Shown here: in pieces, positions 21,701 to 60,824 of the stretch
How the letters are laid out: each line of letters starts with the position of its first letter
How positions within the stretch are numbered: position 1 is the stretch's first letter
Source of the DNA: Acholoe squamosa
Lineage: Eukaryota; Annelida; Polychaeta; Phyllodocida; Polynoidae
DNA: 64,000 bases
NCBI GenBank assembly: GCA_949317995.1
Contig: OX439045.1
Coordinates: forward strand, 43,791,693-43,855,692
Reading direction: 5' to 3'
Translations under genes and position numbers: made by a program
Notes under the pieces: generated by a model
Told to the model about the DNA's origin: nothing
What the model saw: the letters and a program-made list of their open reading frames with translations, nothing else
Database searches by the model: none

Positions 21701-23755
21701 CTAGAACAGAACACATACTCCAGAGTGAGACTAGGACAGGGGCTTGTATATTAAAGAGAGACCAGAGCAGAATGCACACCGATAATAGGACAGGGACTTT
21801 TATGTTGAAGTGAAACTAAAACAGGACACACACACAGAATAAGACATGACCTTAATGTTTAATCAAGACAGGAACGCTAATATCAAACAGAGACTAGAAC
21901 AGGACAGACATAAAAACTAGGACAGGGACTTGCATATCTAACAGAGACCAAAACTGAATCAGACAGGGACTTTAATATTGAGAGTAGAACCCTAACGCTG
22001 AAAAAAGATGCTAGAACAGGACCTTGCATGAGAGGGACCAGGACAGAATGCACATTGAAAATAGGGCAGGGACTTTTATATTGAATTGAGACTAGACCAA
22101 GACACATACAGAGAATAGGACCGAGATTCCAATGATCAACTGAGACTAGAACATGACCCATACTTCAGAAAGAGACTAAGACAGGGACTTGCATATCAAA
22201 CCGAGACCAGAACAGTATGCACACCGAGAACAGCGCAGGGACTTTTATATTGAATTGAGACTAGACCAATACAGAGATAATAGAGCAGGGATCTAATGCT
22301 GATTCAAGACAAGAACAGGACATATACTTCACACTGCATATCAAACCAAGAGCAGAACAGATCACAAGGAGAATAGGACAGGGGCTTTCAAATAGGACAA
22401 AGACATAGACAGAGAATAGGACAGGGACACTAATGCTGTACCGAGACTAGAACGGAACACACATTCATACAGAGGTTGGGACAAGGACTTGCATATTAAA
22501 CAGAGAGTGGACCAGAATGCACACCGAGAATAGGACAGTGACTTTTATATAGAAGTAAAACTAGAACAGGACACATACAGAGAATAGGACAGGACCCTAA
22601 TGTTAAACAAATACTATGACAGGTCACACATTTCATACAGACATAGAACTAGGACAGGGACTTTCATATCGTACAGAGACCAGAATGGAACACATACTGA
22701 GAATAGGACATAGACTTTTTCATTGAATTGAGACTAGAGCAGGACACATACAGAGAATAGGACAGAGATTCTAATATTTGACTGAGACTAGAACAGGACG
22801 TATATTTCAGACAGACACTTGGACAGGGACTTGCATATCAAGCAGAGACCATAAGAGAACAAATAGATTGAATAGGACAGGGACTTTTATACTGAATTGA
22901 GATTAGACCAAGAGACAATCATTACAGATGATAGGACAGGGACCCTGATGCTGAGTCAAGAACAGGACACAAACTTCACACAGAGACTAGGACAGGGACT
23001 CTATTATGTTGAAGTGAGACTAGAATAGGACAGAACAGGATTAGAACAGGACAGATATAGAAACTAGGACAGGGACTTGCATATCAAACAGAAACCAGAA
23101 TGGAACACATACTGAGAATATGACATGATCTTTCATATTGAACAATACTAGGACAGGACAGATAGAGAAACTAGAACGGGGACTTGCATATCAAACAAAG
23201 CCCAAAATGCACACTGAAAATCGGACAGGGACTTTTATTTTGAATTGAGATAGACGAGAACACATAGAGAGAATAGGACAGAGATTCCAAAGTATAACTG
23301 AGACTAGAACAGAACACATACTTCATACAGAGACTAGAACAGAGACTTGGATAACAGGGACCAGAACAGAATACACACTGAGAATAAGACAGGGACTTTT
23401 GTATTGAATTGAGATTAGACTAGGACACATACAGAGAATAGTCCGGGGATTCCAATGTTGAAATGAGCCTAGAACAGGACACATACTTTAAACAGAGACC
23501 AAGACAGGGTCTTTCATGTTAAACAGAAACCAGAACAGAATGCACACCGAGAATAGGACAGTGACTTTTATATTGAAGTAAAACTAGAACAGGACACATA
23601 CAGAAATTAGGACAGGACCCTAGTTTTAAACAAAGACTATGACAGGTCACACATTTCATACAGAGAATGGGACAGGAACTATATTGATGAAACAAGACAA
23701 GAACAGGACACATACTTCACACAGAGACTAGGACAGGGACTTGCATAACAGAGAT

Positions 23756-24308
23756 CAGAACAGAAGGTCCAGCGAGAATAGTAAATGGACTTTTAAATTG
23801 AATTGAGACTAGACCAGGACACAGAGATTAGGACAAAGATTCCAATGTTTAACTGAGACTAGAACAGGACATATACTTCAAACAGAGACTAGAACACAGA
23901 CTTGGATAACAGAGACCAGAACAGAATACACACTAAGAATAGGACAGAGACCTTTGTACTGAATTGAGATTAGAACACATACAGAGAATAGTCCAGGGAT
24001 TCCAATGTTGAAATGAGACTAGAACAGGACACTTACTTCATACAGAGACTGAGACAGGGACTTGCATATCAAACAGAGACCAGAACAGAAGGCACGGTGA
24101 GAATAGGACAGACCAGTCAAGACACAGGATATAGAGTTGGGACAAGACCATGACACATACAGAGTAGAAAAAAAGGACCTTAATGCTAAGCTAAGACTAT
24201 GACAGGTCACATATTTCACATTGCGAATGGGACAGGAACTTGCCTATCAAACAGAAAACAGAACATAATGCATACAGTGACTAGGACAGGGACTTGCACA
24301 ACAGAGAT
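23756..24308. repeat. Higher-order repeat, copy 1 (553 bp)
   Basis: Begins CAGAACAGAAGGTCCAGCG. Reading it against 24309-24861 shows no difference I could find over 553 bp, about ten times the basic satellite unit. This contrasts with the strong divergence of neighbouring units and indicates a recent tandem duplication, or an assembly duplication. Confidence 0.85.
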
Positions 24309-24861
24309 CAGAACAGAAGGTCCAGCGAGAATAGTAAATGGACTTTTAAATTGAATTGAGACTAGACCAGGACACAGAGATTAGGACAAAGATTCCAATG
24401 TTTAACTGAGACTAGAACAGGACATATACTTCAAACAGAGACTAGAACACAGACTTGGATAACAGAGACCAGAACAGAATACACACTAAGAATAGGACAG
24501 AGACCTTTGTACTGAATTGAGATTAGAACACATACAGAGAATAGTCCAGGGATTCCAATGTTGAAATGAGACTAGAACAGGACACTTACTTCATACAGAG
24601 ACTGAGACAGGGACTTGCATATCAAACAGAGACCAGAACAGAAGGCACGGTGAGAATAGGACAGACCAGTCAAGACACAGGATATAGAGTTGGGACAAGA
24701 CCATGACACATACAGAGTAGAAAAAAAGGACCTTAATGCTAAGCTAAGACTATGACAGGTCACATATTTCACATTGCGAATGGGACAGGAACTTGCCTAT
24801 CAAACAGAAAACAGAACATAATGCATACAGTGACTAGGACAGGGACTTGCACAACAGAGAT
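24309..24861. repeat. Higher-order repeat, copy 2 (553 bp)
   Basis: Directly adjacent to copy 1 and apparently identical to it. A third, diverged copy starts at 24862 (CAGAACAGAAGCTCCAGCG) and is recognisable for about 280 bp. Related blocks recur near 25.3-25.56 and 25.7-25.96 kb. Confidence 0.85.
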
Positions 24862-26520
24862 CAGAACAGAAGCTCCAGCGAGTATCGTAAATGGACTTTC
24901 GAATTGAATTGAGACTAGACCAGGACACAGGGATTAGGACAAAGAGTCCAATGTTTAACTGAGACTAGAACAGGACATATACTTCAAACAGAGACTAGAA
25001 CACAGACTTGGATAACAGAGACCAGAACAGAATACACACTGAGAATATGACAGGAACTTTTGAATTGAATTGAGATTAGAACACATACAGAGAATAGTCC
25101 AGGAATTCCAATGTTGAAATGAGACTAGAACAGGACACATACTTTAAACAGAGACCAAGACAGAGACTTGCATGTTAAACAGAAACCAGAACAGAATGCA
25201 CACCGAGAATAGGACAGGGACTTTTATATTGAATTGAGACTAAACCAGGACACATACAGAGATTAGGACAGACATTTCGATGTTTAACTGAGACTAAAAC
25301 AGGACACTTACTTCATGCAGAGACTGAGACAGGGACTTGCATATCAAACAGAGACCAGAACAGAAGACATGATGAGAATAGGACAGACCAGTTAAGACAC
25401 AGGATATTGAATTGGGACAAGACCATGACAAATACAGAGTAGAGAAAAGGACCTTAATGTTAAGCTAAGACTATGACAGGTCACATATTTCATATAGCGA
25501 ATAGGACAGGAACTTGCCTATCAAACAGAGAACAGAACATAATGCATACAGAGACTAGGACAGGGACTTGCATAACAGAGATCAGAACAGAAACCAGAAC
25601 AGAATGCATACTGAGAATAGTACAGGGACTATTGAATTGAGACTAGACCAGGACACATACAGAGATTAGGACAGACATGTCAATGTTTAACTGAGACTAA
25701 AACAGGACACTTACTTCATACAGAGACTGAGACAGGGACTTGCATATCAAACAGAGATCAGAACAGAAGGCATGGTGAGAATAGGACAGACGAGTCAAGC
25801 CACAGGATATTGAATTGAGACAAGACCATGACACATACAGAGTATAGAAAAGGACCTTAATGTTAAGCTAAGACTATGACAGGTTACATATTTCATACAG
25901 CGAATGGGACAGGAACTTGCATATCAAACAGAGAACAGAACATAATGCATACAGAGAATAGGACATGGAATTTCATATTGAAACAAAACTAGGACAGCAC
26001 GCATAGAGAGACTAGGACAGGAACTCCCATATCAAAAAGAGATGTCAAAAGGAGACCCAATTGGGATATACTAATTGGACAGGAACTGTCATATCTAACA
26101 GAGAGAACAGGACAGGGACTAGTGCAGCATTTTGCATACAAGACAGAATCTAGAATAGGACATATTCAGAGAATCAGATGGGGACCTTGATGTTGAACAG
26201 AGACTAGATCAGAATGCAGAATTCATATATAACATAGGAGAGATAACAGGAGAGGGTTTCTAATGTTGAACAAAAACAAGAATGGGAGAAAGAATTTGTA
26301 CAGATTATATAACAGGGACTCTAATATCAGACAGTGACCAGAACAGAATGCACACTGAGAATAGTACAGTGACTTTTATATTGAACAGAGACTAAAACAG
26401 GACACATAATTCATACAGAGAATACAACAAGGACTTTAATGAGATGGACACTCAAACTGGACTAATACAGAGAATAGGACAGGGACCCTTATGCTGACCC
26501 AAGACTAGCACAGAACAAAT

Positions 26521-27770
26521 AATTCATACAGAGAATAGGACAGGAACTATAATAGAACAGGGCACAGTCGACAGGAAACATATAATAGCACAGATGAGAA
26601 TTGGACAGGAAGCATAATGGGACAGCATCCTAATATTGAACACATACCAGAATACGACATGACAGTGATGACCATCGGACAGGAAACATATGATAGGCCA
26701 GTGACTGTGATATTGAACATAGACAAGAACAGAACAGGACAGAGATGAGAATCGAATAGTAAACATATAATCAGACAGTAACTGTTATATATAACAGAGA
26801 CCAGAATAGGACATGACAATGATGACAATCAGGCAGAAAAGATATAATAGGACAGTGACTGTGATATTGAACAACGACCAGAATAGGACAGGATAGTGAT
26901 GACAATTGGACAGGAAACATATTATAGAACATTGACTGAAATATTGAACAGTGACCAGAATAGGACATGACAGTGATGACCATTGGACAGGAAACATATA
27001 GTAGGACAGTGACTGTGATATTGAACAGAGACAAGACTAGAACAGGACAGAGATGAGTAAATATATAATAGGACAGTGACTTATATTGAACAGAGACCAG
27101 AGTAGGACATGACAGAGATTACAAATGGACAGGAAACATATAATAGGACAGTGACTGTGACATTGAACTGAGAAAAGAATAAAAAAGGGCAGAGACGAGA
27201 ATCGAATAGTAAACATATAATAGGATAGTGACTTATATTTTTGAACAGAGACCAGAATAGGACATGACAGTGATGAACATCGGACAGGAAACATACGATA
27301 GGACAGTGACTGTTATATCTGAACAGAGACCAGAATAGGACATGACAGTGATGAACCTCGGACAGGAAACATACGATACGACAGTGACTGTAATATTGAA
27401 CGGAGACCAGAATAGGACATGACAGTGATGACCATTGGACAGGAAACATATAATAGCACAGTGACTGTGATATTGAACAGAGACAAGACTAGAACAGGAC
27501 AGAGATGAGAATCGAATAGTAAATATGTAATAGGACAGTAACTGTTATATATAACAGAGGCCAGAATAGGACATGACTGTGATGACAATCAGGCAGAAAA
27601 GAAATAATAGGACAGTGACTGTGATATTGAACAGTGACCAGAATAGGACACGACAGTGATGACAATCAGAGGGGAAACATATAATAGGAGAGTGACTGTG
27701 ATATTGAATTGAGACAAGAATAGAACAGGACAGAGACGAGAATCGAATATTAGATAAATCAGATGACGAA
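26521..27770. repeat. Second satellite family, unit about 77-78 bp
   Basis: Abutting the main array, the unit changes to CATTGGACAGGAAACATATA, then ATAGGACAGTGACTGTGATA, then TTGAACAGAGACCAGAATAG, then GACATGACAGTGATGA. It is 77-78 bp, repeated about 16 times with moderate divergence, and shares GGACAG and GAACAGAGAC words with the 54-bp family. Units of 78 bp give 26-residue periodic minus-strand frames, which I treat as artefacts. Confidence 0.8.
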
Positions 27771-44525: not shown

Positions 44526-45603
44526 ATGGAGGACATTATAGCTGTGAACAGGGCATGTACATCCCAATCCAGCTTTACATCTGACGACAGCACTAACGCT
44601 GACGCTCAGTGTGACATCCCAACACAAAAATTTGACTCAATACCTGAGGATGGGATGGACTGGGAACTGAGCAGCCAAGTGCCGGCGGGCCAGATTGCCC
44701 GGAGGATCAGATACAAATCCTCAGAGAACATGGGAGGGAGATGCTCCTACTGCAGCCACTGCAGGAACCCATAGACTTCCATGCACCACTAGTGAGGTGG
44801 CCACAAGAAGTCTGACCTGACCCTAGATACTCTGCCAAAAGTCCAGCCGAAACAGAGGTAGGAGTTGCAGCAGAAAGCACTAGAGTACAATGGAAGAGAC
44901 TTAGACATCTACACCTCACACAGCACCAACCCCACCACACTAGGGCGGGGTACACCAGGTACACACCCGACTCCCCAGCACCAGATGACGCTAGAGGCAG
45001 GGTAACCTACCAAGCGAAACAACCCACCTTTGGGGACAACTACCCAAGGATGCCACTCCAGGGCTACAGCGATATCACCTTCGACCCCAGACGAGGTGGC
45101 TATGCAGCCCCACACCATAGCAACCTACAGGAGGCAGACATGGAATACTACCTGCATCCTAGATACCAAGTGGACACAGAACACACCACCACACACAGGA
45201 GGATCCTACCTCACCATAACCTGCCCCCACAGCACGCCCCAGCACCAACATACCACCCACAATGGACATGGACACAGGGCCCCACCTCACACCTGGCCAA
45301 AGACAACAATAAACAAGGCTTCCAGTACCTACTAGGTGACAGCCTGAAGGAGGAAGTCACCACATGTAGTAAGCTACATGACACCTTTAAGGAAGTCTTT
45401 ATCAGACCCAAAGACAAAAGGAAGCCCACAAACCAGGGAAACTCCACCAAGGGCCCAGCCCAGGGCCAGGTCAACAGCGAGGGCACCAACAGCAATAGAA
45501 CAACAGGTACCACTAAAACAACCAACAGTCACACAGAAACAACACCCACCAAGGGCAGTATGACGAAAAGAGGAAACAATACATGGAGGCCAATACAACA
45601 ATA
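44526..45603 (+). pseudogene. DIRS ORF1 (gag-like), broken
   Basis: ATG at 44526 opens an 82-codon acidic frame ending at 44771-44773. The coding register moves to another frame near 44725-44735. There a Pro/Gln/His/Thr-rich protein continues through one TGA (near 44815) to TAG at 45602-45604, with segments such as GYSDITFDPRRGGYAAP. The C-terminal part is basic and Thr/Lys-rich, as in nucleic-acid-binding Gag tails. Position before the RT and low-complexity composition support a Gag role; no zinc knuckle is seen. At least one frameshift and one nonsense codon make it inactive. Confidence 0.6.
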
Positions 45604-45790
45604 GCAAACAACACAAAAACAAGCAAGACAAACACCAGCGCAACAAAGGCAGCACCAACAACAGGCGCTAATAACAAAAATAAATTCACCTACCTCCCAC
45701 ACACATACAAGTTACACATTCCAGGCAGGTGGTCTGGGCAGGGAAGCAGGCACATGGTCACAATACACATCAGACGGATGGGTACTGGAC

Positions 45791-47068
45791 ATGGTAAAAG
45801 GCTTACCCATAAGCTTATGGTCCCTGCCCACCCAACTGAGACAACCTGACTCTAGGTGCTTGGACCCAGTGAAAGACAGAATCATGAGTGAGCAACTCAA
45901 GAAACTGCTATCACAAGGCATAATAGAACCTGCCTTCCCATTACCTAGAGCCTTCGTCTCACACATGTTCCTAAAAGAAAAATCTAATGGAACATACAGG
46001 CCCATACTAAATCTGTCAAGCTTGAATGAATACATATCATACAAGCATTTAAAAATGGACCACCTGTAGGTGGTTATGAAGACGGTCCTAAAAGACAGCT
46101 ACCTAACCAGCATAGACATAACCCAGGCCTACTTTTCACTACCGGTAAAACTGAGGGATAGGGACCTCCTACAACTAATACATGATGGCAATAGATATAG
46201 GTTCACCTGTCTCCCCAATGGTTACTCTCCAGGGCCTAGAATCTCCACAAAAATCATGAAGGCTCTCATGGCACACCTGAAAACAAAGCATGGGGTAAAC
46301 CTTGTCTTTTACATAGACGTCACACTAATCTACGCAAAAACAAAAGCAGAAGTCAGAACAGCCACAATACACACACTCAGGATGTTGCAAAATGCAGGCT
46401 TCACCATCAACTTTGATAAATCAGTACTAGAGCTAACACAAACCATCGAGTACCTAGGCTTCATACTGCACTCACCCACACTAACACTCACAATACCTGA
46501 CAAAAAACAAGCCGATATCTCACAAAAGGTGGAGGATATCATTAAGGTACAAATATGTACCATAAGGAAATTCTTGTAGGTTCTCGGAGCCCTAGCTGCC
46601 ACAAAACCTGGGAATGACAGAGCAAAAGTACTGACCAAAATGCTCATCATTGCAAAAAAACAGGTCTTAATAACAACACAGGGTAATTATGACAAATTTA
46701 TACCCCTCAGAGGGTTCATAAAACCAACCCTGAGAGAAAACCTACAGTACCTTCCACATGCAAAGAAAACATACACAGCAAAGTGCCCACAGATAGCTCT
46801 ATACACAGACTCCTCAGACACAGGATGGGGTGCATACATACCTGAAACCCACTCTGCGTATGGGGAAGAATGGTGTGGAGAAATAGAACCCCTCCACATA
46901 AACATAAAAGAGATCCTAGCAGTCCACAGGGCACTCCTACACTTCAAAAAGCCCCTAACGGAGAAACACATACATATGTTCATAGACAACACCACAGCCA
47001 TCAGCTGCCTCAACAAAGGGGGCTCTAGTCAATCCATCCCACGCAACAAAGCCTCAGAAAGTGTATAG
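45791..47068 (+). pseudogene. DIRS reverse transcriptase-RNase H, broken
   Basis: One reading frame runs throughout, interrupted by TAG at 46067 and 46577 and closed by TAG at 47066. RT motifs are visible: FLKEKSNGTYRPILNLS (fingers), SIDITQAYFSLPV with the first catalytic Asp, LPNGYSPGP, and FYIDVTLIYA where the YxDD box is expected. The second Asp of that box is Val, which should abolish polymerisation. RNase H follows, with LYTDSSDTGWGAYI, a conserved Glu in NIKEILAVHRAL and Asp in FIDNTTAISCLNKGG. Both internal stops could be CAG-to-TAG changes. The same frame stays readable beyond 47068 into the recombinase region. Confidence 0.9.
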
Positions 47069-47224
47069 TCGGCAGGAGAATGGACACTGAGCCTGAGAGC
47101 CAAGAGATTCAAAAAGTTCTCAAAACCTGACATTAACCTATTTGCCTCACCTTCCAATGCAATATGCCTACACCACTACCCCAATGCATATGCAACCGAT
47201 GCATTCTCCATAACCTGGCCAAGC

Positions 47225-48209
47225 TTGTTTGTACTCATATTTCTAACCTTTAGTATCATTGGCAGGACCTCAGGAGACTGCCCACCTTCAAGGACAGATG
47301 GACCCTCATCAACGCTACAATGGCCAGGAGATCAGAAGAAAGTCTTCCAGGATGAGGCTCCTATGCCTGTCCCTATAGCCGACAAGCACTCTCTTGAGAT
47401 CATCTGGTGCAAGCGCATAGGACTATCCAAAGCATCCTGGGAGCTCCTCATGGCTTCATGGTCAAAGTGTACTATAGCCAGCTATGCAATAGTGGCAAGG
47501 AAGTGGCTAAAACACACCAGCGAAAACAATGTTAGCATCACCCACCCCGCCATACACCAATGTGTCGATTTCCTAACAGAGATCGCCAACAGTGGGGTGG
47601 GTCACTCATCAATAGCCTCCACCAGGTTGCTAATATCATGCTTCATCTATATAGAAGGCAGACCATTAGGGGAGCACGCAATGACCCAGCTAGTGAAAGG
47701 GACAAAAGCCTAAACCCACGACAGGAACCTTATGAATACATTTGGAACCCAGCACCAGTAATACACAAACTGGCATAGTGGGGTGACATAGAAGAACTAG
47801 ACTTGGATAAGCTGACAAAGAGAATCCTACCACTCTTCATGCTAGCAACAGGTCAGAGGATACAGAACACCTATATGCCCTGCTAAGAACTGACCTCAGA
47901 CTTTCAGAGGATACCATCAGGATCAAATACTCCACAAAACTGAAATCCAACCACTACTCCTCAAAAGAAGCACACCCCAGAGTGTTGGGCACCATAAAAA
48001 GGCCTTCCACCCAAGCCAGCTCCATCACCTTATCAAGATAGGTGACCCTAAAGGACACAGGCATAGAGGAACACTTTGGGACATACAGCACAAGACACGC
48101 TGCCACAAGTGTGGCGGATAGGCTAAATGTGCCAATAAATGACATACTCAGCTTGGCAGGATGGGCTAGAACCAATACATTTGCCAGGTTCTACAACAGA
48201 CCTCTACTG
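47225..48209 (+). pseudogene. DIRS tyrosine recombinase, 5' part, broken
   Basis: The N-terminal core-binding region (GLSKASWELLMASWSK, then a VDFLTEIANSGVGHSSIA-like segment) is read in one frame to TAA at 47711. The signal then moves to a second frame (LFMLATGQR, supplying the first catalytic Arg, near 47840) and to a third (GTYSTRHAATSVAD with Arg/His, GWARTNTFARFYNRP with the Tyr nucleophile, 48080-48200). Nonsense codons lie at 47776 and 48040. The Harbinger element is inserted right after the CTG (Leu) codon at 48207-48209, and the remaining codons lie at 58027-58098. The Arg, His/Arg and Tyr catalytic set is recognisable, but the gene cannot be expressed as one protein. Confidence 0.85.
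48207..48209. repeat. Target-site duplication CTG, left
   Basis: Matched by CTG at 58024-58026. PIF/Harbinger elements usually duplicate TWA, so CTG is atypical. Confidence 0.8.
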
Positions 48210-48395
48210 GAGGTCGTTACAGAATCCACGAGAATGCAGTGTTTCTCGTAGAGCTGCGGTGCAACCGTTACACAAAAGAAATCTCGTTCTGTTTTGCCTG
48301 GTGTGACCTCAGAACGAGGAAAAAAGCGTAACACAAATAAAGTCTCGTTGTGAAAGTCTCGTTTTGTGTCCTCTTTGAGTCTGTCACGAGATAAA
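48210..48395. promoter_or_regulatory. Harbinger left end with CTCGT/ACGAG motif array
   Basis: About seven CTCGT or ACGAG words lie between 48228 and 48390, in both orientations, after the 12-bp terminal repeat. They probably include transposase or Myb-protein binding sites and the transposase promoter region. Confidence 0.55.
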
Positions 48396-48532
48396 AAAAG
48401 GCAGTTACTCTAGATGTTCTGCCTTTTACTTCTTCAGCATTGTTTTCAATGGGGACCATCGTTTTGATCCTGACAAGTTGGGTACCAGTGTAGACTCTGT
48501 TTTCTGAGGTAAATTTGAAGGAAGAAGACATC

Positions 48533-48736
48533 ATGCCTCCTTTAAGGGATCGCTTGGGCAGGAAAACCCGCAAGTGTAAGCCAAGGGAGTCGCCTTTTTC
48601 TTTGTTCAACGATGAGGAATTTGTGGCAAGGTATCGCCTCAGCAAAGACGTAGTCAGGAAACTAGTAGAAGAATACAAGAAGCACAGTGCTTTCAAGGGC
48701 ACCAAGAGGGCAGGAGGCATGACACATATTGACAGG
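48533..48736 (+). CDS. Harbinger transposase, exon 1 (residues 1-68)
   Basis: The five exons 48533-48736, 49274-49621, 49797-49945, 50145-50279 and 50455-50695 join in phase to 1,077 nt, an uninterrupted 358-residue product, about the usual size for HARBI1-type nucleases. This exon starts with ATG in MPPLRDRLGRKTRK, then SPFSLFNDEEFVARYRLSKD, the N-terminal helix-turn-helix-like region typical of the family. It ends AGG/GTAAAA in phase 0. The protein is the DNA-cutting and joining enzyme and normally needs a Myb/SANT partner for nuclear import and DNA binding; two candidates are on the opposite strand. Confidence 0.93.
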
Positions 48737-48859
48737 GTAAAAATTTTTCTCTTCAATCTAAATGAAACTGTTTTCCTTTTTTTCTTTATCAGACATCCTA
48801 TTCCCCTCCCCTTTCCTCTCTGTCTTATTCTCTTTTTAAATAAAAAAGTTGCAGCAGCC

Positions 48860-49125
48860 CACTGATGTCACTCATGTCTCTTAGGTTTCATTTCATGTTA
48901 GGGGGTGTGGATGGTGTGTCCCCCATGTCACATGTCGATTTTAAAAAACGGTCATGTCACATGTCACTTGAATCCCCATGTCACATGTCACCTCTAACAA
49001 CCTGTCATGTCCCATGTCAAATATAAGAAAACACCTATCTCATGTCACTAATTTTTTGCCTCATCTCACTAATGCCCATGTCACATGTAGATATTAAGAA
49101 CTGACCATGTCACCATGTCGAATTA
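48860..49125. repeat. CATGTCA-rich intronic repeat
   Basis: CATGTCACATGTCAC and shorter CATGTCA words recur about twelve times in transposase intron 1, with irregular spacing. Confidence 0.75.
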
Positions 49126-49273
49126 ATTGCTAAACACGGATATATTAAAAGTGAAGAGAAGGAGACTGATTCAGGATATATTCTTCTTACTCCTTCCCTC
49201 CTCTCCTCTTTATGAGACCCCCCCCCCCTTCACCCTTATCTTCTTGCAAGTAACTTTTCATCTTTCTTTTCAG

Positions 49274-49621
49274 TTTTGCCTGGTCCTCCGTTATTTTGCG
49301 ACAGGCAGCTTCTATGCGCTCACAGGTGATTCCCAGAAGGTGTCAAGAACTGCCGTATGCCGTGCTGTGAAGGATGTAGCCGGTTTCTTTTACAGGAACA
49401 GCCATCTCTTCATACAATGGCCTCACTCTTTCGAGGAGAAGCTCCATCTCGCACTGAAGCTGTATCGCCATCCGAAGCCTGGGACGGAGGAAGAGGAGCA
49501 GAAGACACCATACGTTTTTGGATACGTAGATGGGACTCATGTACCTGTTAAAACCCCTACTGAATACCAGAACGAGAGCGTGTATGTGAACAGGAATGGG
49601 TACCATTCTATTAACACCACC
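49274..49621 (+). CDS. Harbinger transposase, exon 2 (residues 69-184)
   Basis: The acceptor is CTTTCTTTTCAG and the donor ACC/GTAAGT, both phase 0. It includes LVLRYFATGSFYALTGD, the conserved family signature before the catalytic domain, and YVFGYVDGTHVPVKTP, whose Asp (about residue 154) is the first catalytic acid. GYHSINT at the exon end matches the usual N-x-Q/S-type motif before strand two of the RNase H-like fold. Confidence 0.93.
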
Positions 49622-49796
49622 GTAAGTTGTTGTTGTTGTTGTTGTAAGAGTAGTTCTTTATACATATAAAATTATATATCTTACTGGCTCAGAAAATTTC
49701 TTCTCTTAAGTAAGAGTCTTCATAAGTTTGCATGAACAAGTTCTCTTACATAGTTTTCTCTTTTCCCAAATTAATTTTTATTCTTGGTTCTATCAG

Positions 49797-49945
49797 GTGA
49801 TCTGTGACTACGACAAAAGAATCCTCTTTGTGGACCCCCGCTGGCCTGGATCGGTGCACGACGCATATTCCCTGAATTCCAGCCCGCTTGGAGACGAATT
49901 GGAGGCGGAGGCTTGGGAGGACTTTGTCCTCTTAGGGGACTCTGG
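49797..49945 (+). CDS. Harbinger transposase, exon 3 (residues 185-234)
   Basis: Acceptor TTCTATCAG, donor GG/GTGAGT in phase 2. It carries ILFVDPRWPGSVHDAYSL, where the HDA Asp (about residue 206) is the second catalytic acid, and FVLLGDSG, the usual G-D-x-G segment of the family. Confidence 0.93.
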
Positions 49946-50144
49946 GTGAGTTTTTTTTTATTCTTCTTTTTTTTTTATTCGTACTCTGGAGTTACTTAAA
50001 TGGATACTCAAGGGCTTCCTATATGAACGTCCTCCCCCATTTCTTTTTTTTTTTTCAGAGAGGAAAACAAAAATTTCTTAACACAGTTAGGGCACCTTCT
50101 TCTTTGTTTCTCTTCATCTTATTATCTTTTGGCTCCTTTCTCAG

Positions 50145-50279
50145 ATACGGTCTGAGGAGAAATCTCTTCACCCCCTTCAAGGATGAGGAGACTCCTAAAC
50201 AGCGCTCCTTCAATGTGTGGCACAAGAGGAGCAGAGTACGAGTAGAGCACTGCATTGGGATACTCAAGCAGCGTTGGAG
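50145..50279 (+). CDS. Harbinger transposase, exon 4 (residues 234-278)
   Basis: Acceptor GGCTCCTTTCTCAG, donor AG/GTGAGA in phase 2. It includes FNVWHKRSRVRVEHCIGILK. The Glu of VEHCIG (about residue 268) is the third catalytic acid, completing the DDE triad. Confidence 0.93.
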
Positions 50280-50454
50280 GTGAGAAAAATTGAATCTTTA
50301 TTTGATTGTAAACATCTTTTTATTTATCAAAGGAACTCAAAAATAAGGAGATGGTCCTCCCTTAAAAAAAATAATGAAGCATGTTACTGTTTGAATATAA
50401 AGAGGAAAAACAAGCTGGAACTGAAAAGTAAAAAACTCTCTTTTGAATATTCAG

Positions 50455-50695
50455 GATCCTGGACTCTTCGGCTGGGTACATACGGCATTCACCTAAGAGG
50501 AGTTCGTGGATCATAACGGCTTGTGCATGTCTCCACAACGTGGCCCTGGACCACCGGATACGGATTGTGAACAGCCCCTCTGATCATTGGAGGCCCAAGA
50601 GAGCCCCCCTTGTCCAGCCTCCACAGAGGACTCAGCTGGAACAAAGTGACTATGTCAAGAAGTTCAGGAAAGACTATGCTGAGAAGTATTTCTAG
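50455..50695 (+). CDS. Harbinger transposase, exon 5 (residues 279-358)
   Basis: Acceptor GAATATTCAG. It includes SSWIITACACLHNVAL, the conserved C-terminal helix with the LHN signature, and ends at TAG 50693-50695. An AATAAA polyadenylation signal follows at 50879-50884. No stop, frameshift or missing catalytic residue was found, so the enzyme looks intact even though the accompanying genes are damaged. Confidence 0.92.
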
Positions 50696-50943
50696 ATGTC
50701 CAAAAACTGACCTAGTCCTGGCAGTATTCTTTTATAGCCATGTAGTTGTTTTTCTATGTGCCACCTAAATTACCGGTATTTTCATAACAGAAAGATTTTT
50801 GTTTAAAGAAAGAAAAAAAATGATTTTTGTGTTTTTGTTTAACATGTAACCATGAAAGTCTATCCACGCACTGTCTTTAATAAAGGAAATGTAATTATAG
50901 GCCTTAATTCTCTTCTTGTTTAGTTTTTTAAAACAGAGTGAGC

Positions 50944-52659
50944 TCATTTTCCTTGTTTCATCTTTCTTGCCATTCTTTCTGCCCTTATGGCTGCTCTTTC
51001 AGCTTTCCTCTTAGCCTTTTCGGCGCATATTATTTTCCACTCTTCCTCAGTGCACTGGATGACCTTTAGTCCTGGTTTGGGTTTGACTTCCTGCTTTTGT
51101 TGAGCCAAAAGTCTCTTCCTCTCCTCCTCTTTTTTCATCGACATGTCATTAACCTCTTTCTGTATTCTGGCATCTATTTCCTCTTTTCTTCTCTCCTCTT
51201 TCATTTTTTTCTCATGGGCCCTCTTTCTTTCCTCTTTCCTCATCCTTTCTTTCCTCCTTTTTTCCTTGTCTTTATCTTTCCTTGGCATCTTTGTAACTTT
51301 CATTGATCCCTGAACTTTAGTGAAATCACAGGACCCAGGTTTCCAGAGAGCGTCCTCATCGAAGGCCTCTTTGTGTTCTGCTGGGTTCAAAGCCATCGGT
51401 TTTATGCCAGGAATACCTTTACGAAATAAATAATTGAGTAATTAAACATTATCCTTCAATTTTATTTCTGTTAAGAAATTTATTCTAAATTCCGGCCACA
51501 AATAAGGTGTAAGACAAGAGCCACAGCTTACCTCTCACTGCCTCGGGCTTCAGGTATTCCAGTGCCTTTTCCTGTGTCTCGGTTAACTTCTTTTTCTTGT
51601 CCACAGGGCCACTGCCAGTCTTGCTCAATTCCCTCCTCAGCTTGTTGTACTAGAACAAAACAAGAAAATAATTAAAGTTTCCTACTCTTAAGAGAAGGTT
51701 TATGCTAGACCAGGGCACCTTTTTACATTAAAAATCTCTTTGAAAGTTTACAGTTCTAAATTTGTGTCTCACCTTTTGCTTGTTCTTCTGGGTGAAATCA
51801 GAGGTTTTATAGGAACATTGTTCCACTGTGCGATGGGTTTTAGCTTCTGCATTAACGTACACTGCAAAAAAGAAGGGATTTAATTGAGCAATTAATTCTT
51901 AAAAATTAATTCAGTTTAAAAATATCTTGTTCTTATAGAAAACCGACACAGACAGAAAAAAAGAGGCCATTTGATATCTCTTATGTTACTCACAAGCTAC
52001 ATCCCTCCGTGCCTGCCTCCTGATGTCCTTTCCACCCCCTGTCCCACTGAAGTGGTACTTAAGGGCTGCTCTGTTATGGTTCACAGCGTCCATTAAGGCA
52101 TCTACCTCCCTCTTTTTTCACCTATCAGTCGACACAGGCATGTCCTCTCTCAGGGGTGTGTCATCTGCCTCGCTCTCAGATGAACTGGCATTAGAATTAT
52201 CATCCGCAGCTCCTTGTTTGCCATACAGAGTCTCATTCAAGGGTCTATTAGTGTCATTTACATCTGGAACATAGAGCACTGTAGAGGCAGCAGAGTCGAC
52301 TGACTGGTTGTCTAAGGGTTTTAATGTCATCTGCCTTTTCTTTTTCTTCGGGCGGGTAACCTGTGACAGAAAAGGGAGAACAAGAAATAAAGACAAGTAG
52401 AATAACAGCAAAGAATATGTCTTTTATATTACCGTACAGCAGAACGAGACAAAAACTCTAGTAACGAGGGTTAACATCCTTTTCTCGTTGTGCTTCGTCG
52501 CCTTGCCTCCCGCGCAGCGACGTCTTATAAAACGGATGTTCCCTTTTTTTATGACAATCTCCTCATTAAAAGACTGCTTTTATAGGCCTGAATATATATA
52601 GCAGTAAATTTATTCTGAAATACACCCACCTGAACCTTGTTTGCTTGGTTATCGTCCAT
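50944..52659 (-). pseudogene. Harbinger-encoded Myb/SANT-like protein 1, one premature stop
   Basis: Minus-strand exons 52659-52630 (MDDNQANKVQ), 52360-51994, 51861-51773, 51649-51532 and 51416-50944 join in phase to 1,077 nt. A basic KKKKR cluster is followed by an acidic stretch, then a Myb/SANT-like domain (about residues 92-165) with REVDALMDAVNHNRAALKYH, YVNAEAKTHRTVEQC and KYNKLRRELSKTGSG, as in MSANTD-type proteins. A Lys/Glu/Arg-rich helical tail follows. TGA at 52120-52118 (codon 91) interrupts the frame just before the DNA-binding domain; it could be a CpG change from CGA. Role by analogy: partner that binds terminal DNA or imports the transposase. A perfect CRE (TGACGTCA, 52697-52704) lies just upstream. 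Confidence 0.8.
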
Positions 52660-52800
52660 TTGGTTAGGAGTTGAAGTCACGAAGTTGGGTGAAAGATGAC
52701 GTCACACTAGTTGTGTTTCAGTGGCGCCACCTTCGCACAACAAGAAAAATTGCCCTTTTCTCGTTGTGCTGCGTGGCATTTCTGACAGGGGAGAAAACCT
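52440..52800. promoter_or_regulatory. Internal CTCGT-rich region around the Myb gene 1 start
   Basis: TTTTCTCGTTGTGCT at about 52481 and 52759, and AACGAGGGTT at about 52465, resemble CTCGCTGTGCT and its surroundings near the right end (about 57829). The CRE at 52697-52704 is between them. It is likely the promoter and regulatory part of the minus-strand gene, carrying the same motif family as the transposon ends. Confidence 0.45.
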
Positions 52801-53445
52801 TTTTTATCCATTCTCTGTTTGATAAGAGAGGTTCAATTTTGATATTTAAATGGTTATGATCATAGTCAGCCATCTTTTTTCAGGATGGGATTTTCAGAAG
52901 AAGATGAATCTTTATTTCTGTTGTTTTGTAGCCTTTTTATTTTTATAATAATTACCATAAAGGGAAATAAACAGGTCTGAAGGTGAACAAACTCTTTATT
53001 GTCTCTCATAACAATGACCTTAATGTCCTCTTTCCTTCTGAGACGAAGACATATGGCGTCTTGGATAAATAACATGCTTATTCTCTTTGAGAACTCACAT
53101 CAGCACCGTAAAACTTCATAAAAAAAAGCTGAACATGGCAATTTTTTCTTCTCTTATATCTATAAAGAAGACACACATTAATTGTGCTATCTCTTCTGGA
53201 GCCAAGCTGTATGAAGATATGATTTCCTTCTTCACTAGTGTAATTAACGTTTAACACATACATGCATAAGATAAAGAGAAAAAGAATAGCAAATAATCTC
53301 TTGACATTTTCTTGCTCCTTCTGCATGAAATATCTGTTTTGATTTTTGCTGTTCATGTACAAGTTGACTAGAACGGAAAATTTTTAAACAGGATTAAAAA
53401 GAAAGGATATCCTTTGACAGAAATATAGTCTTCACATATATCAGT

Positions 53446-56400
53446 CTAGTTCTTTTTGGGGAACCCTTTCTTGGGTTTCTTGCTTTTGCCAGAAGCTGCA
53501 GCATTAGCAACTACTACGCGTTTCCTAGTAGTGGGGGGACCTGGCACGACAGGGGGGGGGCCGGGACTTTTCCTTTGGTACGCGTTTTTCTTCATACATG
53601 TGCATGTTATGCAGCACATTAGCTGCTTCCATAACTTTGTCTGAAATATCAGCATCTTGTTTTGGTTCCTTTGTTTTTTCCGGGTCCGAGTCTGGTTGTG
53701 TTTTAACATGGATCCTGACTCCACCTTTTGACACATCTACTTCATGTCGGACAGAAGAGCCGGAAGGGGCAGGCTTTCTGACATGTTCTCCCCTAGTACG
53801 GGCAGAAGAAAGAACATCAAGATGAAGGTTTAAAGGTTCTTCGGGGAGGTCATCATTCACTATGTCTATGATAGAGTCATGGTTTTTTCAGCCTGCTGAG
53901 ACAGTCCCTGTTGATCCCCTACCTGATTATTTGGATTGTCCTCATTTGAACCTCTCTCCTCTATAGCTTCTTCTGATAAATTAACAGGCACCTTTTGAAT
54001 GTCCTCTTTCTCAGTAGTCTCTTTGAGTCCATCCTCTTTCTGTGGTTCAGAGCCGTGCTCTGTAGCCTCGTTTCTTTCTGTTTCTTTCAGGTGGGCCTCG
54101 TTAGGTTCAGAGCAATTCTCTGTACATTCATTTGATTCATTTTCTTTCAGGTGGGCCTGGTTAGGTTCACAGTTGTTGTCTGTAGCCTCATTTCCTTCAG
54201 TTTGTTTCTCTTCAGGTGGGCTCAGTTCAGACTTCTTATCTGTAGCCTCATTAACTTGAGGTTCATTGTCGTCACCATTTTCTGCTTCATTGTTGTTTCC
54301 TGCAGGCTCTTTTTCTTCTGTCTCGTTTACTTCTTCCTCTTTCTCTCCTTCGGCATCATCTTGTACATCCTCTTGTGTTTCAGCATTATGTTCTAGGTTT
54401 TCTCCCCCATCTCCTTCCTTTTCGTCGTCGCCTTCTTCCTGCCGTCTCTCTGTGGCCTCTGTTGTTGGCTTCTCACAAGGCAATTGCTCCTCTGAACGAG
54501 GCTTTGCTCCTCGAGTGTCATCAGCGGGTTGGGAGTCACCTTTAAGTGGGCTATGGGTAAGGATGACTGGGCGGGCAGCGGACGGAGAAGGACCCACCAC
54601 AAGAGATCCATCAGGGTTCAGGTGCAGCAGGTTGTTGGTGTCTGCAGAGTTAGGATCCAGGGACACGACTGTCAGAAAAAGAAAATGAATAAGGTAAGGT
54701 TTTTTTCAAGAAAAACAAAAAGAGAAAAGAAGACAAAATTTCATATTTAGCTTCGTTTGGTCTAGTCAGATTTGGGATTAATATTCTATCATCTTAACAG
54801 AGAAAATAACTTTTGAAGAAGAATAAAGTCTTACTTTGTAAATCACCGGTACGGGGGTTTGGCTGGAGACCTAAGGGCCGTACTTCCCAATTTTGCGGAA
54901 GAGGGGCCTCTTGCTTCTGGGGAGTCTTGAACACGAGTCCCTCTGTCACATATATCAGCTTCCCGAGGGCTGAAGGAAAGGAGGAGGGAAGAATGAATTG
55001 AGAGGAATCATAGTACTCTGCAGTAAACAAGGAAGCGATGTCAAGTTTTAATCTCGAAAGGACAGGCACATCTAATTTTTTGCTTCAACTGAAATTTTTA
55101 AGTTAAGACATTTCTTTTTTCTTTTGTTCACATGAAAGAGAGAGAAAACATATAATTCTTTATGTTTAGAGAGAAAAAGTTAAAAAAATTTGTACTAGTA
55201 CCTTGTACGACCTGGGTTGAATTTTTAGTAGAAAGGGCATGCGACTCCAACAGCAGGTGTCGATCGCTGGCGATTCTCTCTAAAACTGATAGCGTCCTTT
55301 CATTTACCTCAGTGTTACGGTACAGGAGAGACTGAAGGTGCTCATCTGTCTGCCGCCTGTTCACTTCTATCGTGGACAGAAGAGACTCTATCTTGGCTAT
55401 CCTCAAGTCATGGTCTAACAAGAAAGGGGGGGGAAAGGTCCTTGGCATTATGTTCCTGTGTTCCACATTCCTGTTCTGTCTCATCTTCGAAGCTCAGTTT
55501 CCTGCTGCTTTTTCCACTTTTTGGTGGCTTATCCTTCTCTTGCAGCCGTGGGCTCCTACGCAAAGATGATTTCAGTTCTGATCCTTTAGGAGTGGAGGTC
55601 ACGGGGTTCTCACACCCAGTCATATCTACTATATCGTCGTCGTCTACAATGTTCACTACCATGTCATCTGACAAGTCGTCTTTGAAGTGGGTTTCCCCGG
55701 TGAGGTCAATATGGACCTCCCTAGAAGCTGCCCCTCTCACACCTTTCTTCCCCGGCTTGACGAATGGCTTGTGCTCTTTGGCAGAAGAACTTGCCGCAGC
55801 AGGACGCTTAGCAACGGGTGGCTTAACAGGAGGGGATTTCTTTTGAACACCTGAGGTAGAAGCCTTGGAAGGGGGGGGGTTGATGTTTTGTTACTTTTAG
55901 CAGAGGTTGCCTTAACTGTCTTCACGGTAGAAAAAAGCTGATGTTCTGCCTTTATGTCCTCCTCAGAAGGCACTACAATAACCTTTTTGGGGGTGGGAAT
56001 GTGCCTGGGGGAAGCTGCTTGGTGGGGAGAAGCCTTAGGCTGGGGTTTTCTCTGTTCTTTAGCTTTGTGGCGTCTTTGTTTCTCTTCCTCGACCTTGTCG
56101 GTGTGATATATCACTACGCTGCCTTCACGTTCAGGAAAATAAGTCAGAACAAACAACAGATTAAAGTAAAATTTATGGTGACACGCTTTCACACTAAGGA
56201 AAACAGAAATGTATTTTATTCGGCCTCAATTATTTAATAACTTGAACCAAGAGCTTCTTGGAAGAAGAAGACAACAAAACGTACAGCAGTAAATGATAAT
56301 GACAGAAACAATGTTCTTTAAGAGAAGATGATTGCTTACCTGCTATGCCTTGTACTTAAGGCATAGAGCCTCGGTCAGCGTCACACCATCCACTTTACGA

Positions 56401-57710
56401 CCCTTGTCTATAGCCGCAAGCATTTGCTCGTTCTGAAAGGAAGAAAGAACATAAAATAGTTTGCATTTTTTATAAATTAAGTTTAAATATCCTCCTTTGA
56501 AAAATAAGTTCATTGATTTCAAAAGACGAGAAGAAGCAGGTTCTTACATATAAATTTATTTTTTCGTACCATGTCATGATTTTTAGGAAAGAATCACTAA
56601 GAGAAAAAGAAAAGAGAGTTGAAACATTTTTTTTACCTTAGCTTTGACCTTCCAGAAGTAATCGTTAATATGGTTCCTCATCTTGTCTATGTTGCGGTCC
56701 TCGTTCTTCACACTGTTCACAGTGGCTGAAAAATTGAAAGAAAAGCTTCTTTGATATGGATGAAAAAAAAATTTCTATGTCTATGCTTGGTTTATCTTGT
56801 TTAAAAAAAAAGGGCAAGGTATGAAGTGATAAATATAAAAAATATTAAAGGGAAGACCTCAATTAATTCATGGACACATTAGACATAAACCAAAGTAAAA
56901 AATTAAGACAAAAAAAAAGACTCACTTAGCACAGTGTCCCAGCCTTCCTTCCTCAATTGAGCAGAGTTTTTACCTCGAGCTTTCAACAAGTGCTTTTGGT
57001 TATAGCACGAGTAAAACAGAGCCCTGTGTTCCCTGTCGTTCCAAACAGACTCCTTCTTGCTAATAGTTCCTCGTGTGGTTTTTCGAGGAGTGACAGGGCC
57101 AGGTACGTGTTCTGTGTTCTCCTCGTCGCTGATTTCACTTGAGTCTTCCACGACATATTCCTGCTTAACTTTAGACATGGTTAGTATCTCGGGCAGCTCA
57201 AAACTTTGGTGATGCTCCAATACCTCCTCTCCTGGACGAACTTCCATATAACTGTCGTCCTCGTCAGTGGAGCTCAAGTCGTAACCTTTTTGGTACTGAT
57301 AAATAAAAAATAATTACACTAATATTATATTACTTCTGAAGGAAACCACAGGAAGCAGAGGGGGGGGGGACATTTTCTGTCATAATTAAACTTTAAGACA
57401 CAAATTTGGACGCTTCATTTAACAGAAGTCAGGGTAGGAAAGGTAAAAAAAGAAGAAAAATGCTCTATAGGCACAAGGAAACTAGCCAGTGCTACAGGGA
57501 GGAAGAGAGAGACAGCCATATTGACACAAGAGAGAAGGGCGTGGGCTTTTACTCTATTATCGCTCATGCTGGCTGGCAGAGAAATGGAGATAACAGAAAA
57601 GAAAAGACAGAACAACTTTGAATACCACTATTATCCTGAAGATCGGAATAGATGAAACAAGATTGCTTTCATCAGTTAACTTTAATTACCTGTGTTTCGT
57701 CGAAATACAT
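53446..57710 (-). pseudogene. Harbinger-encoded Myb/SANT-like protein 2, long acidic form, four homopolymer frameshifts
   Basis: Minus-strand exons 57710-57690 (MYFDETQ), 57295-56926, 56725-56637, 56432 to about 56340, about 56118-55202, 54969-54835 and 54668-53446 give about 950 codons. A trihelix-like Myb/SANT domain spans exons 2-4: SVWNDREHRALFYSC, KEGWDTVL, RNHINDYFWKVKAK. Then come a basic Pro/Ala-rich linker, a probable coiled coil (IAKIESLLSTIEV to ERIASDRHLLLES), a very acidic region with three or four 20-24-residue repeats (EPNEAHLKE-like), and a Lys-rich tail (KSKKPKKGFPKK). The frame moves by one base at C runs (55868-55880, 55427-55436, 53552-53560 in + coordinates) and at an A run (53883-53888). 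A TAG at 56345-56343 precedes a strong donor, so that exon boundary is uncertain. An ETS site CCGGAAGTG (57770-57778) lies upstream. Confidence 0.75.
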
Positions 57711-57724
57711 GGTGCAAGCCGTAG

Positions 57725-58023
57725 TCCAGTAACTCTCCACCGTTCTTTGTTTTGGCGGCGGTGGACTACCCGGAAGTGACGTTCAGCAGTATATAGGTCA
57801 AGTTTCGCTGGTGTCCCGCACTTTTTTCTCGCTGTGCTGAACCCTCGTTGCTCTTACGAGGAAATCGGAACAACGATTACTTTCCTCGTCTCGTTTCGGC
57901 TACGAGACTCGCTCGGGAAAGGCAGAAGGTATTGTGTAACGGGTGTGAAAAATGCTCATATCTTTTCTCGCCCATGTATGAGGAAGCATCATAACGAGTC
58001 CTCTTTCATTGTGTAACGACCTC
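57725..58023. promoter_or_regulatory. Harbinger right end: Myb gene 2 promoter and CTCGT/ACGAG motif array
   Basis: About seven CTCGT/ACGAG or TCTCGC words lie at 57828-58000, then CCGTTACACAA (inverted) at 57932-57942 and the terminal repeat at 58012-58023. CCGGAAGTG and TGACGTT at 57770-57784 look like ETS and CRE-half sites driving the minus-strand gene. Confidence 0.5.
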
Positions 58024-58026
58024 CTG
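58024..58026. repeat. Target-site duplication CTG, right
   Basis: Pairs with 48207-48209. Confidence 0.8.
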
Positions 58027-58098
58027 GAAGATATAAAGGATACCCCACATGAGCCTAACTTCATAATTGCCATCATGAACCGTGAAACAGACTCCTAA
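58027..58098 (+). pseudogene. DIRS tyrosine recombinase, 3' remainder
   Basis: Directly after the right CTG duplication the frame of 48042-48209 continues for 23 codons (beginning EDIKDTPHEPNF) to TAA at 58096-58098. The exact frame match across the 9.8-kb insertion shows that this is the severed C-terminus of the recombinase. Confidence 0.85.
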
Positions 58099-60626: not shown

Positions 60627-60824
60627 CGCTACTCAGGCGGCAGAGGCTTGCTACTGGTACGCTACTCAGGCGGCAGAGGCTTGCTACTGGTACGCTACTC
60701 AGGCGGCAGAGGCTTGCTACTGGTACGCTACTCAGGCGGCACAGGCTTGCTACTGGTACGCTACTCAGGCGGCACAGGCTTGCTACTGGTACGCTACTCA
60801 GGCGGCACAGGCTTGCTACTGGTA
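60627..60824. repeat. 33-bp minisatellite, about six copies
   Basis: Unit GCTACTCAGGCGGCAGAGGC plus TTGCTACTGGTAC. Early copies have GGCAGAGG and later copies GGCACAGG, so an expansion boundary is visible. The unit length is a multiple of three, giving an 11-residue periodic frame on the minus strand that I regard as an artefact. Confidence 0.9.

Follow-up and report, generated by a model that had tools for sequence, protein, structure and literature searches.

A complete three-gene Harbinger-type transposon in Acholoe squamosa carrying a Myb/SANT gene and a second, larger SANT-like gene

The window analyzed here, 64,000 nucleotides from the 1.48-Gb genome of the polynoid annelid Acholoe squamosa (contig OX439045.1, hereafter C11, positions 43791693-43855692), contains a complete PIF/Harbinger (PHIS) DNA transposon with three genes, a finding that alignment of its copies confirmed (Table 1). 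The genes encode a DDE transposase and, on the opposite strand and pointing toward it, a Myb/SANT protein (G2) and a larger SANT-like protein (G3). A sequence-only reading of the window had proposed a three-gene Harbinger with two distinct Myb/SANT-type partners at 48533..57710. The three genes indeed lie there and the two partners are distinct, while the ends of the element fall outside that interval; the transposase is intact as stated, whereas G2 and G3 are broken in this copy. We lean toward the view that the element is a CWG-targeting, NuwaI-like PHIS transposon with a stable third gene, in which G2 would serve as the end-binding partner and G3 as a chromatin-facing regulator.

A nucleotide search of the genome with 48200-58050, of which 14 candidates were scored, recovered among these 8 near-full copies (96-97% identity) that, together with the window element and broken or truncated copies, constitute family A (individual loci are designated by L numbers). 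Alignment of the near-full copies fixed the edges of the element as flank, CTG, GAGGTCGTTACA ... TGTAACGACCTC, CTG, flank, with CTG flanking both ends in 8/9 copies and L016 stopping short on the right. An inverted pair (48209-48232/58001-58024) matches these outer ends, and a 26-base pattern from the left end is found at 56 places in the genome and nowhere in a reversed control. When the flanks were joined at a single CTG, all 40 scored places (the best 40 of 160 candidates) spanned the junction, and the four empty sites fetched read exactly CTACTGGAAGAT in three cases and CTC in one. Because the empty sites hold a single CTG, this trinucleotide is the duplicated target. CAG, in the same orientation, flanks one copy each of the related families B and C; CTG in family A and CAG in families B and C therefore define the target as CWG. 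The features that mark PIF/Harbinger elements are thus all present: a 3-bp target duplication (CTG) with short terminal inverted repeats (12 bp), a DDE_Tnp_4-type transposase and a separate Myb/SANT partner gene, the last recognized by the G2 domain in families A and B. A left end at CGTTACACAA (48266) had been entertained and was rejected, as the copies place the true end 56 bases further out; repeats of the terminal core inside the element lie near both ends (48266 and 57932). The window copy interrupts a DIRS-like retroelement in its 3' part (44816-48206 and from 58027; extent judged partly by eye). This retroelement contains a reverse transcriptase match (PF00078, 4.6e-19) in 46070-46579, and its last frame seems, by eye, to run on across the joined flanks.

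The transposase matches PF13359 (DDE_Tnp_4) over residues 153-307 with an E-value of 5.9e-36, above the Pfam cut-off, and contains a candidate catalytic triad, D154, D206 and E268, assigned by motif alone; a sequence search of the PDB returned a single weak, unrelated match (E 0.54). Its frame is open in 8/9 near-full family A copies including that of the window, where it is the only one of the three genes to be open. Short repeats of the CATGTCACATGTC type occupy part of its first intron (48921-49119). Another DDE_Tnp_4 transposase, with an open frame of ~304 codons, is present in this genome in dozens of nearly identical copies, which represent a second expanded Harbinger-like family.

Both minus-strand genes are predicted to be spliced, as in the sequence-only reading, and across the three gene models splice dinucleotides are preserved in 123/126 intron-copy cases. 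G2 is the expected 358-codon partner with a charged tail, rich in lysine and arginine, and is open in 4/9 near-full family A copies; in the window copy codon 91 is the nonsense codon TGA, where other in-frame copies encode tryptophan. Pfam scans of the whole protein yielded no Myb match in family A or B. Scanned alone, the domain matched Myb_DNA-bind_4 in family A (2.8e-6) and Myb_DNA-bind_5 in family B (4.1e-6), both over the Pfam cut-offs, and an AlphaFold2 model of the family B domain consists of three helices (predicted local distance difference test score 66.6). A PDB sequence search with G2 returned nothing. Profile alignment (hhalign) of the G2 and G3 SANT domains gave a weak relationship from two-sequence profiles (probability 14.8%, E 0.0018, 22% identity).

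G3 is open end to end in one of nine copies, L014, with the start codon ATA, and open to codon 922 in L010 and to codon 816 in L017. The window copy is broken by a 10-bp deletion near 56348, by homopolymer indels and by loss of the acceptor at 56129. A putative fourth gene, a short minus-strand SANT frame ending in 'KYKA*', was rejected, since its stop stems from this 10-bp deletion, which is present in the window copy and in 0/8 other aligned copies. The corresponding domain of G3 gives matches (E-values 0.0025 in family A and 0.00083 in family B) that fall short of the Pfam cut-offs, and the protein is hence termed SANT-like; its PDB sequence search gave four weak, unrelated matches (best E 0.63). 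Three parts of G3 are kept across lineages: the SANT-like block, a set of short motifs and a C-terminal block. In addition, a coiled-coil-like block is kept in position between families, and the C-terminus is basic. The short motifs fit the pattern [VIL]D[VILM][TSV], have acidic neighbors and number four in family A (IDLT, IVDMT, VIDIV and VDVS, in a protein whose first 500 residues are from L017 and the remainder from L015) and four in family B (VDLT, VVDLT, VIDVT and IDVS), against ~0.4 per shuffled protein; they recur in family E (VDLT, VDVV, IVDLT and IDIS), family D (IDLT and VDVS) and family C (VVDMT). By likeness only, we take them to resemble SUMO-interacting motifs (SIM-like). The middle domain differs between lineages and evolves fast: it is acidic in family A (34% aspartate and glutamate, net charge -52, copy L015) and in family E (24%), whereas in family B a 75-bp tandem repeat encodes a weakly acidic segment (10%). 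The description of G3 as a ~950-codon form with a long acidic repeat was thus accurate as to size (956 codons) and as to family A; the acidic domain was rejected as its key feature.

Table 1. Features of the element (window positions) and its relatives elsewhere in the genome.
Feature	Position	Strand	Details
Complete element	48210-58023		9814 bp; ends fixed by aligning near-full copies
Target-site duplication CTG, left copy	48207..48209		9/9 copies; single CTG at empty sites
Target-site duplication CTG, right copy	58024..58026		copy alignment, empty sites
Left terminal inverted repeat GAGGTCGTTACA	48210..48221	+	12 bp; copy alignment
Right terminal inverted repeat TGTAACGACCTC	58012..58023	-	8/9 copies (L016 ends short)
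Left subterminal region	48210..48532		upstream of transposase; candidate motif CTCGTTGTGA at 48344
Transposase gene	48533..50695	+	5 exons, 358 codons, DDE_Tnp_4
Transposase exons	48533-48736, 49274-49621, 49797-49945, 50145-50279, 50455-50695	+	
G2, Myb/SANT protein	50943..52659	-	5 exons, 358 codons; lysine/arginine-rich tail
G2 exons	52630-52659, 51994-52360, 51773-51861, 51532-51649, 50943-51416	-	
G2 start region	52361..52770		intron 1 and upstream; candidate motif CTCGTTGTGC at 52484 and 52760
G3, large SANT-like protein	53446..57710	-	7 exons, 956 codons in L014
G3 exons	57690-57710, 56926-57295, 56637-56725, 56340-56432, 55202-56128, 54835-54969, 53446-54668	-	
Right subterminal region	57711..58023		upstream of G3; candidate motif CTCGCTGTGC at 57828
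Family B	L040+L039, C10		CWG and GAGGTCGTTAC ends; all three frames open
Family B, second copy	L048		
Family C	L042		decayed; ends and all three genes
Family D	L041		decayed; pieces of three genes in same order; ends not found
Family E	L049		all three genes; left end CTG|GGGGCC; right end beyond fetched piece

The sequence-only reading had called for a search for full-length relatives and had named, as grounds for doubt, relatives lacking one of the minus-strand genes and signs of a captured host gene or nested element. Both minus-strand genes, open or broken, are present in 9/9 near-full copies (truncated copies such as L019 and L021 are uncounted), and four further lineages bring to 5/5 the number of those examined (families A to E, D in pieces) that have all three genes, identically ordered. 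In family B, the transposase has five exons matching those of family A and is 72% identical, G2 is one long exon (61% identical), and G3 is a continuous frame of 1052 codons, 43% identical to that of family A over the part matching exons 1-5 and 30% over the rest; single-exon matches to the transposase of family E are 64-67% identical. L047, which belongs to the same lineage as L049, was rejected as a two-gene relative: L049 has G3, and in L047 the transposase and G2 are followed by a retroelement (by eye), which makes this locus uninformative on G3. Co-occurrence was also counted genome-wide from lists of best-scored matches, so that the counts are lower bounds, the window copy itself being among the G3 misses. 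At least 71 of 89 places matching transposase exon 2 at >=90% identity have a G3 match within 11 kb, at least 67 have a G2 match within 5 kb and at least 56 have both; conversely, a transposase match lies near at least 71 of 83 G3 places (11 kb) and at least 67 of 70 G2 places (5 kb). Because the three-gene order recurs in all five lineages, it is very unlikely that G3 is a passenger captured once from the host, or an independent nested element. The fast evolution of its middle domain and the 12/83 G3 places lacking a listed transposase exon within 11 kb speak for such an origin, although the only one of these 12 to be opened, L042, does contain a transposase; the fact that diverged lineages have G3 at the identical position and with common exon borders, along with the continuous G3 frame of family B, speaks against it. 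Inner ends around G2 or G3 did not turn up among the 25 longest of 122 inverted pairs, no dedicated search having been made, and a distant single-copy host relative of G3 may exist, as the genome search scored the best 85 of 2764 candidates. A search of viral contigs found no relatives of the element. A young subfamily is suggested by long stretches of G3 that are the same in several copies of family A (310 residues at 100% in six of them).

Selection was estimated within family A from 8 copies (L016 left out; intron divergence 3.0%) as the ratio of nonsynonymous to synonymous substitution rates (dN/dS), which was 0.34 for the transposase and lowest, 0.20, for G2. G3 was heterogeneous, with 0.97 over exons 1-4, 0.43 over exon 5 and 0.70 over exon 6 plus most of exon 7. 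Comparison of families A and B shows saturation or near-saturation at synonymous sites, and dN amounts to 0.21 for the transposase, 0.32 for G2, and 0.57 and 0.87 for the first and last parts of G3. Because its size, domain and constraint fit, G2 is probably the usual Myb-like partner. An exchange of roles, in which G3 would bind the ends and the basic-tailed G2 would be an accessory for nuclear import or DNA compaction, draws on the SANT block of G3, which shows 61% identity between families A and B over 119 columns (43% in the surrounding part). We regard this exchange as improbable: it is G2 that has the usual partner size of 300-400 aa (PMC9710019), the stronger Myb match and the lowest dN/dS, and G2 is better conserved overall (61% vs 43% and 30% for the two parts of G3).

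Candidate binding sites are concentrated near the ends of the element and the start of G2. The motif CTCGT/ACGAG, correctly assigned to the ends by the sequence-only reading, occurs 7 times vs 0.73 expected on the left (48207-48532) and 6 times vs 1.05 expected on the right (57711-58026), at positions that differ between the two subterminal regions. The longer pattern CTCG[TC]TGTG[ACT] has 4, 6 and 3 sites in families A, B and C, respectively, vs 0.06-0.07 expected, all near an end or the start of G2, that is, by the start of each gene; it was picked after viewing families A and B, so this placement test is only partly independent. In further loci, hits to the 10-bp motif fall near the ends or the G2 start in 7/7 cases in L048, 5/8 in L049 and 3/5 in L047 (positions read by eye). 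The dissimilar arrangement of motifs at the two ends, the presence of SANT-type domains in both proteins (weaker in G3) and the conserved position of the coiled-coil-like block of G3 would also be consistent with G3 being a second structural subunit, each of the two proteins then occupying its own sites at the two ends and both being required for a correct synapse. This is possible, though on the whole unlikely: Harbinger3_DR and Ping move with a transposase and one partner (PMC2836001), and a structural role leaves the ~750 residues of G3 beyond the SANT block unexplained.

The data presented above have led us to propose a model whereby the DDE transposase would cut and join at CWG, while G2, as the usual Myb-like partner, would bind subterminal sites, for which CTCG[TC]TGTG is the candidate, and bring the transposase to the nucleus and to the ends. 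We infer the roles of all three proteins. G3, a second SANT-like protein with SIM-like motifs and a coiled-coil-like block, variable in its middle and basic at its C-terminus, would act at the ends and promoters of the element in a chromatin-facing manner, aiding expression or transposition. Its recurrence in several diverged families suggests that G3 is of use to the element, and that of a chromatin-facing regulator is its most likely and most economical role. Several results weigh against this model. The dN/dS of 0.97 shows no constraint on the SANT exons of G3 within family A, and the G3 SANT match falls under the Pfam cut-off (19.7 vs 21.7 bits in family B, 19.2 vs 23.6 in family A). A Foldseek comparison of the modeled family B G2 domain with the PDB found no match, SANT or other, at E <= 0.001. 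None of nine aligned family A copies keeps all three genes open, the 12 G3 places mentioned above have no listed transposase exon, and in family E 3/8 motif hits in L049 and 2/5 in L047 lie elsewhere. Moreover, the SIM-like and 10-bp patterns were both picked after viewing the sequences. A bolder proposal, which we consider doubtful, casts G3 as a chromatin factor that the transposon encodes and that reads SUMO, acting on CTCGTTGTG sites by the three promoters and at the ends; its SIM-like motifs would capture or divert the host machinery of SUMO-dependent (e.g., small-RNA-guided) silencing, and G3 would then be an anti-silencing protein encoded by an animal DNA transposon itself.

Other repeats were encountered in the window and at related loci. 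Window positions 19981-27745 hold long, degenerate arrays of tandem repeats, among them a 77-bp unit in 14.6 copies (26633-27745), and a 33-bp repeat is present in six copies with 99% matches at 60627-60824. The retroelement in L047 (5672-9901, reversed orientation) appears by eye to be of the non-LTR type (without long terminal repeats), and its upstream open reading frame (ORF) carries a NADAR domain (PF08719, 3.4e-15), to our knowledge an unusual domain for an ORF of a non-LTR retroelement.

Published accounts present PIF/Harbinger elements as two-gene systems (PMC2836001, PMC9710019). Both Harbinger3_DR and Ping require a DDE transposase together with a single Myb-like protein (PMC2836001, PMC9710019); that of Harbinger3_DR binds the ends, recognizes a 9-bp subterminal motif and is required for nuclear entry of the transposase (PMC2836001). 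The present element shares with these canonical systems, including Ping/Pong, the DDE transposase and separate Myb-like partner (PMC2836001, PMC9710019, PMC9179366). Its CWG target fits the NuwaI group of the PHIS superfamily, whose autonomous members mostly have two ORFs and average ~4462 bp (Han et al. 2015, PMC4482050), and by target and description it would be NuwaI-like. The likeness extends to the CWG duplication, short terminal repeats, a DDE transposase with a Myb/SANT protein, and animal hosts. NuwaI terminal repeats usually start with GGG (PMC4482050), as does the left end of family E (GGGG), whereas those of families A-C start with GAGG, and this element has three genes in 9814 bp compared with mostly two ORFs in ~4.5 kb. 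An extra gene within a Harbinger-superfamily element is also known from the TET+ Harbinger (PHISTA) of rust fungi and from HarbingerS, which carries a SET gene (PMC12730594); there, however, it is an enzyme (TET/JBP or SET) rather than a second SANT protein, and PHISTA makes TA duplications and its remaining protein is without Myb/SANT (PMC12730594). The literature searched revealed no element of Harbinger type with a pair of SANT proteins; Repbase and most subscription journals lay outside that search, and an earlier description is possible. Lineages whose transposases differ by about one third and yet share a large SANT-like third gene indicate that the two-gene rule does not cover every case, and that a regulator of their own may be present in some DNA transposons of animals. 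Two questions become testable: what such an element, of which this genome holds 56 exact left ends, needs for multiplying beyond cutting and end binding, and whether animal DNA transposons encode anti-silencing factors, as reported for plant Vandal elements (PMC12730594).

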